A DNA stretch of 64,000 bases, taken from NCBI GenBank assembly GCA_009377375.1, contig WHUE01000011.1, positions 1 through 64,000 on the forward strand, read 5' to 3'. The notes beneath the pieces were generated by a model, which had not been told where the DNA came from, searched no databases, and saw nothing but the letters and a program-made list of their open reading frames with translations. Positions 6,820 through 9,478 of the stretch are shown in pieces. Each line of letters begins with the position of its first letter. Positions within the stretch are counted from its first letter, which is position 1. Origin of the DNA: Alphaproteobacteria bacterium (GTDB taxonomy: Bacteria; Pseudomonadota; Alphaproteobacteria; MPNO01; UBA2964). The translations under genes and the position numbers were made by a program.

Positions 6820-7152
6820 ATGACCTACGATCCCGATTCCGCCGATCTTCTGAACTTCGCCGCCGCCGTGCCCGCGTTCGCGGACGGCTCGGACACCCCG
6901 CGCGCCTGGCTCGAGCGCTGCATCGAAACCATCGAGGCGCGGGCGCCGGAAGTGAAGGCGTTCGTCACCCTCAACCTGGACGGCGCCCGCAAGGCCGCCG
7001 ACGCCTCGTCCGAACGCTACAAGACGGGCAGGGCGCTCGGTCCGGTCGACGGGATACCGCTGGGCGTGCAGGCGATGGGGTTCTACCGCACGGATTACGA
7101 CCTCGTCGCGCTGGCGCGCTGGCTGGGCGGGACGACGCCGGGCGCCGCGTAA
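6820..7152 (+). pseudogene. Internally deleted amidase (amidase-signature family remnant)
   Basis: 110 codons that read as the N-terminus of an amidase (LERCIETIEARAPEVKAFVTL, then GPVDGIPLGV) joined in frame to a typical amidase C-terminus (GVQAMGFYRTDYDLVALARWL). Amidase-signature enzymes are usually 450-500 residues. The whole Ser-Ser-Lys catalytic core and substrate pocket are missing, so no hydrolase activity is expected. The junction falls at PLGV, a string expected in both the N-terminal (PLGVKD) and C-terminal (PLGVQ) parts of an intact gene, pointing to deletion between short direct repeats. The frame is intact, so a short protein may still be made. Confidence 0.75.
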
Positions 7153-7241: not shown

Positions 7242-7727
7242 GTGAAGAACGTCTATCTAGAGACGATCCTGTTGATCGAGCGGCTGCACCGCCAGTTCCT
7301 TGAGGTGGTCAAGGCGGAGCTGGACCGGCTTGGCATCGAGGATATCAACAACGTCCAGAGCCTGATCCTGTCCCATGTGGGCGAGGAGGAACTGACGGTA
7401 GGCGAACTGACCTATCGCGGCTACTACCTGGGTTCGAACGTTTCGTACAACGTGAAGAAGATGGTGGAGAACGGCTACCTGATCCAGGAGCGCTCGACCC
7501 ACGACCGCCGCACGGTGCGGGTCCGCGTCTCCGAGAAGGGACTGGATATCTGCAAGCGGATCACCACGCTCTACGAGCGCCATATCGGCCAGCTCGAGAA
7601 CGGTCCGATCGACGTCACGACGCTGGAGGCGGTGAACAATACGCTGAAGCGGCTGGAGCGGTTCTGGGCCCACGATCTCGCCTATGGCCCGCGCAGCATG
7701 CCGGAGGCCGTCGCCGGGGCCGCCTGA
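7242..7727 (+). CDS. Winged-helix MarR-type regulator, LdtR-like
   Basis: A 161-residue DNA-binding regulator. The sequence MKNVYLETILLIERLHRQFL, then VKAELDRLGIEDINNVQ, and the recognition region TYRGYYLGSNVSYNVKKMVENG are those of the alphaproteobacterial LdtR group of MarR proteins, which in Liberibacter and rhizobia is linked to cell-wall L,D-transpeptidase and stress genes. GTG 7242 was chosen from the GAGGGG Shine-Dalgarno and the conserved opening; the frame extends upstream without homology. No L,D-transpeptidase gene is next to it. The target genes here are unknown. Confidence 0.85.
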   Translation: MKNVYLETILLIERLHRQFLEVVKAELDRLGIEDINNVQSLILSHVGEEELTVGELTYRGYYLGSNVSYNVKKMVENGYLIQERSTHDRRTVRVRVSEKGLDICKRITTLYERHIGQLENGPIDVTTLEAVNNTLKRLERFWAHDLAYGPRSMPEAVAGAA

Positions 7728-7797: not shown

Positions 7798-8700
7798 TCA
7801 GGACGCGATGGCCATCGAGGTTTCGCCGTGCCGTTCGGCCAGCACGGTGCGGAGCTTCGCCAGCGCCCGGCCCTCGATCTGGCGGATGCGTTCCTTGGTC
7901 ACGCCGTACCCGGCGCCGATATCGGCGAGCGTCACCTTCTCGTCGCCAAGGAAGCGCTCGCGGATGATGTCGCGTTCGCGCGGGCTCAGCGTGTCCAGTG
8001 CCTCGTTCAGCCATGCCGCATGGGTGGCGCTGTCCCTCATGTCCTGCACGATGGCCTCCGGCGTCGGCCGTTCGTCGGCCAGAAAATCCATCATCTCGTC
8101 GGTGTCCTCGCCGGCGATGCCCGCGTTGAGCGACCGGTCGGGAGCGGAGAGCTGGGCCTCCATCCGCTCGACGGCGGCCAGCGGCACGCCGAGCTCCTGC
8201 GCGATGGTCTGGCGGTTTTCGGCCGTCAGACCGGTATCCGGGCTCTTGCTGAGCCGGGCGCGCAGCCGGCGCAGGTTGAAGAACAGGCTCTTCTGCGCCG
8301 GGGTGGTGCCGATGCGGACAATGGACGAGTTGCGTACGATATATTCCTGCACCGCGGCGAGAATCCACCAGGTTGCGTAGGTGGAGAACCGTACGTTGCG
8401 CTCGGGGTCGAAGCGGGTGGCGGCTTCCATCAGTCCGACATTGCCTTCCTGGATGAGATCCGGCAGGGGGAGACCGTAGCCGCGGAACCCGGCCGCGATG
8501 CGGATCACAAGGCGCATGTGGCTGGTGATCAGCTCGTCCAGCGCAGCATGATCCTGCTTGTCGCGCCAGCGGCGGCCAAGATTGGCCTCGTGCTCGCGTT
8601 CCAGCAACGGCGTACGCATCGCGGCCGCGATGAACTTCCTGTCGTGGGTTTCCAGATATGACGCCACTTCACTGTTCCTTTCCTTGATCCGGGAACGCAT
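7798..8700 (-). CDS. rpoH: RNA polymerase sigma-32-type factor, RpoH2-like
   Basis: A 300-residue sigma-70-family factor of the heat-shock (RpoH) branch. Region 2 reads GYGLPLPDLIQEGNVGLMEA, FSTYATWWILAAVQEYIVRN and IVRIGTTPAQKSLFFNLRR, the last being the RpoH box. Region 4.2 is VTLADIGAGYGVTKERIRQIE. The pattern RNSSIVRIGTT and LNEALDTLSPRERDII resembles the RpoH2 subgroup, which in other alphaproteobacteria serves singlet-oxygen/oxidative stress (family knowledge). ATG 8700 was chosen; the longer frame to 8877 runs through the promoter and operator region. Transcribed divergently from the cysteine-rich MarR gene. Confidence 0.9.
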   Translation of the reverse strand: MRSRIKERNSEVASYLETHDRKFIAAAMRTPLLEREHEANLGRRWRDKQDHAALDELITSHMRLVIRIAAGFRGYGLPLPDLIQEGNVGLMEAATRFDPERNVRFSTYATWWILAAVQEYIVRNSSIVRIGTTPAQKSLFFNLRRLRARLSKSPDTGLTAENRQTIAQELGVPLAAVERMEAQLSAPDRSLNAGIAGEDTDEMMDFLADERPTPEAIVQDMRDSATHAAWLNEALDTLSPRERDIIRERFLGDEKVTLADIGAGYGVTKERIRQIEGRALAKLRTVLAERHGETSMAIAS

Positions 8701-8734
8701 GCGCGGGAGGCTCCCGGACAGCCAACCCAATTGG

Positions 8735-8791
8735 TATCGACTCGATAATATGGTGTAGGACGGGGTCCCGCAAGGCCCTATCGACTCGATA
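8735..8791. promoter_or_regulatory. Twin TATCGA-N-TCGATA palindromes in the sigma/MarR divergent region
   Basis: The 13-bp string TATCGACTCGATA occurs exactly twice, at 8735-8747 and 8779-8791, with centres 44 bp apart (about four helical turns). With flanks, both contain GGTATCGA-N-TCGATA, the second on the opposite strand. One copy touches the -10 box of the sigma-factor promoter and the other lies just upstream of its -35. This is the expected architecture of a dimeric repressor operator; the MarR protein encoded next door is the natural candidate ligand. Confidence 0.7.
8745..8773 (-). promoter_or_regulatory. Candidate promoter of the RpoH2-like gene
   Basis: On the minus strand TTGCGG (8773-8768), a 17-base spacer, then TATTAT (8750-8745), a 5/6 match to TATAAT. 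The predicted start near 8738 gives a leader of about 38 bases to the ATG at 8700. It is bracketed by the two palindromes. Confidence 0.5.
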
Positions 8792-8908
8792 CCATAAAAT
8801 TTTCGTGAGCGGCGACGGGACCCCGGATAAGCCCCGATCTCCGCGCCCGACGGTTTTTCAGACGGCCCCCTAGCCATACGCAGGTGTACGCCCTAGTTTA
8901 CCCGCGTC

Positions 8909-9478
8909 ATGACCGAAGCCCGGACCCTTGCCGCCCTTGTGGAGCGACTGGGGCGCATGTCACATGCGCTGCAGTTTTCGACGGGGCTCAACCCCTCCCA
9001 GTGGGAGGCGCTGCGCTATCTGGCGCGGGCGAACCGCTATTCGGCGTCGCCGACCGCCCTGGCGAAGTATCTCGGCATTACCAAGGGCACCGTCTCGCAG
9101 ACCATCATCGCGCTGGAATCCAAAGGGCTGGTGACGCGGGTACGGGGCCGGCCGGACGGGCGTTCCGTGCATCTGGAACTGACCGACGAAGGCCGCAACC
9201 TGCTGTGCAGCGACCCGCTGCGGGTTGTGAACGAGGCCGGCGGCTGCATGACCGACGCGGAGCGCGAGGCGACGATCCGCGGCATGAACAAGCTGCTGGA
9301 CGCGCTGTGCCAGGAGAAGGGCCGGTGCGGCTTCGGTGTCTGCGGCGACTGCACCCATCTCGATTCCCGCCCCTGCGCCAAGGGCGGCGGCGAGGGCTGC
9401 TTCTGCGGCCTTGCCAACGAGAGCCTCGCCACGGAGGACCTGCAGAAGCTTTGCGTCAATTTCCAGTCCGCACCCTGA
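8909..9478 (+). CDS. MarR-family regulator with cysteine-rich C-terminal tail
   Basis: A 189-residue regulator. Residues about 10-115 are a MarR winged helix (SPTALAKYLGITKGTVSQTI, then RVRGRPDGRSVHLELTDEG). The last 60 residues carry a dense cysteine set beginning LLDALCQEKGRCGFGVCGDC and continuing with RPC, CFCGL and KLC, which suggests binding of an Fe-S cluster or metal. That would make it a redox or metal sensor; this is inference. ATG 8909 has no clear Shine-Dalgarno. Divergent from the RpoH2-like gene with paired palindromes between, so autoregulation and control of the sigma factor are both plausible. Confidence 0.85.
   Translation: MTEARTLAALVERLGRMSHALQFSTGLNPSQWEALRYLARANRYSASPTALAKYLGITKGTVSQTIIALESKGLVTRVRGRPDGRSVHLELTDEGRNLLCSDPLRVVNEAGGCMTDAEREATIRGMNKLLDALCQEKGRCGFGVCGDCTHLDSRPCAKGGGEGCFCGLANESLATEDLQKLCVNFQSAP

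Follow-up and report, generated by a model that had tools for sequence, protein, structure and literature searches.

Our analysis indicates that two identical palindromes lying between a gene for an RpoH2-type sigma factor and a divergent marR gene are very likely operators of the MarR protein, which carries a C-terminal cysteine domain. A MarR dimer bound to each palindrome would repress both rpoH2 and marR until the cysteine site is attacked. Comparison with relatives from many bacterial families shows that the sites are associated with this type of MarR and that they keep their position on the predicted promoters.

The divergent rpoH2-marR region

The window, the whole stretch of 64,000 nucleotides that was analyzed (contig WHUE01000011.1, positions 1 to 64,000), belongs to an alphaproteobacterial genome of 4.36 Mb. 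Its features that are discussed here are the following, with promoter elements predicted from consensus.

7798 to 8667, minus strand: gene for an rpoH2-type sigma-32 factor (PRK07500 profile; sigma70 r2 and r4), with a GTG start at 8667 after AAGGAAAGG, or an in-frame ATG at 8700
8735 to 8747: putative operator 1 (distal to marR), TATCGACTCGATA, covering the last 3 bp of the rpoH2 -10 and the start region; conserved in relatives
8745 to 8750, minus strand: predicted rpoH2 -10, TATTAT (8750-8745), 17 bp from the -35
8768 to 8773: predicted -35 hexamer common to both divergent promoters, TTGCGG on the minus strand (rpoH2; 8773-8768) and CCGCAA on the plus strand (marR)
8779 to 8791: putative operator 2 (proximal to marR), TATCGACTCGATA, filling the -35/-10 spacer of the marR promoter, overlapping the first 2 bp of its -10 and lying just upstream of the rpoH2 -35; conserved in relatives
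8790 to 8795, plus strand: predicted marR -10, TACCAT (TACTAT or TACCAT in relatives), 16 bp from the -35
8909 to 9478, plus strand: gene for a MarR-family regulator of 189 aa with a C-terminal cysteine domain (PF12802; best Foldseek matches all MarR-family structures)
9332 to 9454, plus strand: the C-terminal domain, F142-G143-x-C145-x2-C148 ... C166 ... C182, with four Cys invariant in a 15-row alignment of diverse relatives and a low-confidence structure model without ligand

The two copies of TATCGACTCGATA are exact, and their centers are 44 bp apart, as a sequence-only reading of the window had reported. That reading had also held that such a repeat was unlikely to arise by chance, and the counts agree. 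When the whole 4.36-Mb genome was searched with the pattern TATCGASTCGATA, only these two places were found, even with one mismatch, and the result was the same when any center base was allowed. The reversed control pattern gave 0 matches in the genome. When the intergenic region was shuffled 20,000 times by dinucleotides, only 27 shuffles produced at least one site at 11/12 or better.

The placement of one copy on the -10 of the sigma gene and of the other just upstream of its -35 holds, the overlap with the -10 being its last 3 bp. What had been missed is that the second copy occupies the interval between the -35 and -10 of the predicted marR promoter, and that one -35 hexamer serves both promoters. 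The marR -35 in the window (CCGCAA) is weak. By sequence, the two promoters resemble the housekeeping sigma-70 type rather than the ECF type. The leader of rpoH2 contains a further inverted repeat, CGGGAGGCTCCCG, at 8704-8716, just upstream of the in-frame ATG at 8700, which might affect rpoH2 translation.

The sigma factor had been proposed to be RpoH2-like, and its score against PRK07500, the RpoH2-type equivalog, is 367.9 bits (cutoff, 315); against the general RpoH model TIGR02392 it scored 292.8 bits, below the cutoff of 323.1. The genome holds two more rpoH-like genes, namely, a separate RpoH1-type paralog (C222; 364.6 bits, over the cutoff) and C111, as well as one partial match. The other two full-length rpoH genes of the genome (loci L119 and L121) are without the site pair. 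A second winged-helix (MarR-like) regulator gene is found at 7254-7727 on the plus strand, tail-to-tail with rpoH2; we take its product to resemble LdtR-type proteins. A short reading frame at 6820-7152 on the plus strand is similar to the N-terminal part of an amidase and is apparently truncated.

Distribution of the site pair among MarR loci

Relatives of the MarR protein were searched at an E value of 1e-25. Of the genomes sampled, 62 of 386 from the class and 26 of 397 from the phylum gave a match, with some weaker matches being without the cysteine domain. The divergent gene is rpoH in about half of the loci studied; a relative with no rpoH next to it is PGA1_RS18780 of Phaeobacter inhibens DSM 17395. 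A pair was defined as two sites of at least 9/12 each, with a sum of at least 19 and a distance of 36 to 60 bp, and 66 loci encoding a cysteine-domain MarR were usable. The pair was found in 53 of them, against 0.02 expected over all 66 from dinucleotide shuffling, and at least one site of 10/12 was present in 61 of the 66 (0.99 expected from shuffling). Among loci with rpoH, 32 of 35 harbor the pair, so that the palindromes are conserved where the gene pair is conserved; the corresponding number for loci without rpoH is 21 of 31. Relatives without the cysteine domain (L019 and L101 and, judged by the extent of the match, L100 and L102) had no site of 10/12. Three members, L098, L107, and L108, had no recognizable sites.

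The layout is fixed across the 53 loci when these are aligned on the sites. The promoter that reads into marR (TTGCAA or TGTCAA, 16 to 18 bp, TACTAT/TACCAT) has its spacer filled by the proximal site. The distal site starts where the TATAGT/TATTAT-type -10 for the divergent gene ends, with TTGNNN located 17 bp upstream of this -10 in most rpoH loci. The two sites are 37 to 57 bp apart, 47 and 55 bp being the most common spacings, and they keep no constant helical phase. The shared -35 of the relatives is often the self-complementary TTGCAA, and a TTGCAA-like hexamer is common to both promoters where the spacing is about 47. Two variations were observed. In the Bradyrhizobium-type loci L081 and L111, the rpoH/marR pair is kept and two TTTCGAAAC repeats, 44 to 46 bp apart, are found instead; these are a possible co-evolved operator code. 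The same-family relatives L004 to L006 have three operator-like sites upstream of marR, with spacings of 16 and 31-32.

Further genomic targets were probed by pattern search. In 20 further genomes, every exact match to TATCGASTCGATA was at the marR locus, with matches in 6 of the 20 and in more than one family. In the next set of genomes, 8 of 10 exact places (any center base) were at the marR locus. One of the two others lies inside an apparent coding region (L125). The other (L129, 1501-1513; genome G464) is far from marR, beside a MOSC/YiiM-like gene. As a homologous MOSC gene directly follows marR in six other loci, this suggests that the L129 site is a genuine second target.

The rpoH2 orthologs of seven genomes without this MarR (L134 to L140; 52 to 58% identity) had no site above 8/12. 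An exception is the rpoH2 gene of genome G025 (62% identity), which has a single 11/12 site and no adjacent marR; the site is either a relic, or marR is absent from an incomplete assembly. As the pairs follow MarR into loci without rpoH, and as rpoH2 genes of MarR-less genomes lack sites except for this single one, a general promoter element of rpoH2 genes is ruled out, and by sequence comparison the sites belong to the cysteine-domain MarR, with or without an rpoH2 neighbor. The proposal that MarR controls the sigma gene and itself thus gained strong comparative support from the rpoH loci and the conserved promoter position, but its scope was too local, since the sites follow the MarR subfamily regardless of rpoH2.

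In a tree of 68 MarR proteins, the rpoH-linked members all fall into a single clade (support, 99/96), and the neighboring group is associated with other genes. Since the operator sequence does not differ between the two groups, MarR and its operator were probably paired before the link to rpoH2 arose, an order that depends on a midpoint root used for drawing only. Downstream of rpoH-linked marR, the genes are conserved among close relatives only.

The same data bear on other explanations of the palindromes. MarR may repress itself from operator 2 but activate rpoH2 via the same site, which is centered at about -47 relative to the likely rpoH2 start, perhaps only after modification of the cysteine site. 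The location of operator 2 just upstream of the rpoH2 -35 would suit an activator. We nevertheless consider this unlikely, as operator 1 lies over the rpoH2 -10 and start, a repressing position that is kept across relatives, and the pair is also common beside unrelated genes. Another regulator, encoded elsewhere, may bind the palindromes, making the proximity to marR secondary. Binding by MarR is a prediction, and the G025 site stands at rpoH2 with no marR next to it; yet the sites accompany the cysteine-domain MarR at loci with different partners in Alpha- and Gammaproteobacteria and are lacking from the rpoH2 genes of genomes without it, which makes such a regulator very unlikely. The probability of a chance repeat, or of part of a hairpin or terminator, is practically nil: genome-wide uniqueness and conservation in relatives rule out each of them.

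The cysteine domain and the possible signal

The MarR protein had been described as cysteine rich from its sequence, and it has both the fold and the cysteines. Its winged-helix domain passed PF12802 (MarR_2; 58.8 bits; cutoff, 27) and PF01047 (39.9 bits; cutoff, 24.6). The structure model matches MepR, MarR, SlyA, and MexR over about 137 columns, including the terminal dimer helices (Foldseek E values down to 7.8e-07). In the alignment, residues T58, G60, T61, S63, Q64, and T65 of the predicted recognition helix are near-invariant or invariant. The C-terminal segment follows the pattern FGxCxxCxH...C.L...C and matched nothing significantly among Pfam and PDB families. The MarR core is modeled well, and the cysteine domain falls below 50 pLDDT in several stretches, so that no geometry can be read from it; such poor modeling without a ligand would be usual for a small metal-binding domain. 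The protein scored 19.8 bits against the equivalog for AdcR, a zinc MarR, below the cutoff of 175. The four-cysteine site may be a metal (Zn) or Fe-S center, or a set of reactive thiols, with a metal or Fe-S center being probable.

The genes that accompany marR elsewhere include those for protoglobin (Halieaceae), cytochrome P460, a thioredoxin-like protein with NnrS nearby, glutaredoxin, and MOSC/YiiM, and in Bradyrhizobium the ferredoxin gene fdxA adjoins rpoH/marR. Several of these families belong to nitric oxide, heme, or thiol stress. Together with the four-cysteine domain, the partner genes suggest a sensor of nitrosative or oxidative attack, and they hint as much at nitrosative, heme, or thiol stress as at the oxidative signal that had been proposed. 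The most common partner other than rpoH is a conserved predicted periplasmic protein, encoded divergently from marR (L078, L084, L085, L087, L091, and others), which carries YVWPTSLDPxxVGF ... HPDFDDTPLFDE ... WHSHWVVL and has no Pfam or NCBIfam match. The same type of MarR is encoded on a conjugative IncHI2 plasmid of Enterobacter hormaechei (L110, 3218-4477), with the operator-like site TATCGATTCGATA and next to genes for glutaredoxin and a Rho-binding antiterminator. It occurs in 56 Enterobacter plasmid records.

Proposed circuit and relation to known systems

In the circuit that we infer, including the binding, the sign of control, the cluster chemistry, and the inducer, a MarR dimer on operator 1 would block the -10 and start region of the rpoH2 promoter, and a dimer on operator 2 would block the spacer and -10 of marR's own promoter, so that both genes would be held low together. 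Attack of a reactive species on the C-terminal four-cysteine site would cause MarR to release the DNA. RpoH2 would then be made and its stress regulon turned on, and newly made MarR would restore repression.

This proposal resembles local autorepression by MarR proteins of the MarR, MexR, SlyA, and OhrR type in its winged-helix dimer scaffold, its divergent target gene, and its palindromic operators, here predicted, over both promoters. It differs from them in the additional C-terminal domain with four invariant cysteines, in having an alternative sigma factor as the target, and in one operator code that is kept across classes. OhrR shares the MarR scaffold, and cysteine-based sensing is plausible here. 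OhrR senses with an N-terminal Cys, whereas the first Cys of the window MarR is residue 100, and the score against the OhrR model is 25.2 bits (cutoff, 200). The Fe-S repressors NsrR and IscR would work in a similar manner if the cysteine domain holds an Fe-S cluster, but they are Rrf2 proteins, a different family, and family scans revealed no relation of the MarR protein to them.

In the searchable open-access literature, we found no description of this MarR type, of the operator, or of MarR control of rpoH2, nor of a MarR with glutaredoxin and a Rho-binding antiterminator, a MarR with protoglobin, or an Fe-S MarR. A local MarR repressor is of a known kind; the cysteine-domain subfamily, the conserved operator pair, and the sigma factor target look new.

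The described route to RpoH2-type sigma factors runs through ECF sigma factors; in Rhodobacter, degradation of ChrR is followed by transcription of rpoHII by RpoE (PMC7074977). The kind of output would be the same, in that oxidants induce an RpoH2-type sigma factor, but here the promoter looks sigma-70-like and has putative MarR operators. The anti-sigma factor ChrR gave no match at an E value of 1e-10 in the genome of the window (G000; 93.5% complete), and RpoE-ChrR control was rejected there on this ground. We tentatively raise the possibility that this is an undescribed MarR subfamily, the cysteine domain of which would sense nitric oxide or another reactive species by means of an Fe-S (or similar) center, and that one paired-operator switch found across Proteobacteria was captured once in Alphaproteobacteria. 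The RpoH2 regulon would then be under direct control of a one-component repressor, and not of an ECF sigma/anti-sigma cascade.

Large stress regulons depend on RpoH2-type sigma factors, and rpoH2 itself appears to be under the direct control of just one repressor in about a dozen of the families sampled. The predicted operators are short, occur in pairs, and have hardly any further copies in each genome, so that a single protein and a single DNA fragment would suffice to test the prediction. For the signal input, the cysteine domain is a clear candidate.
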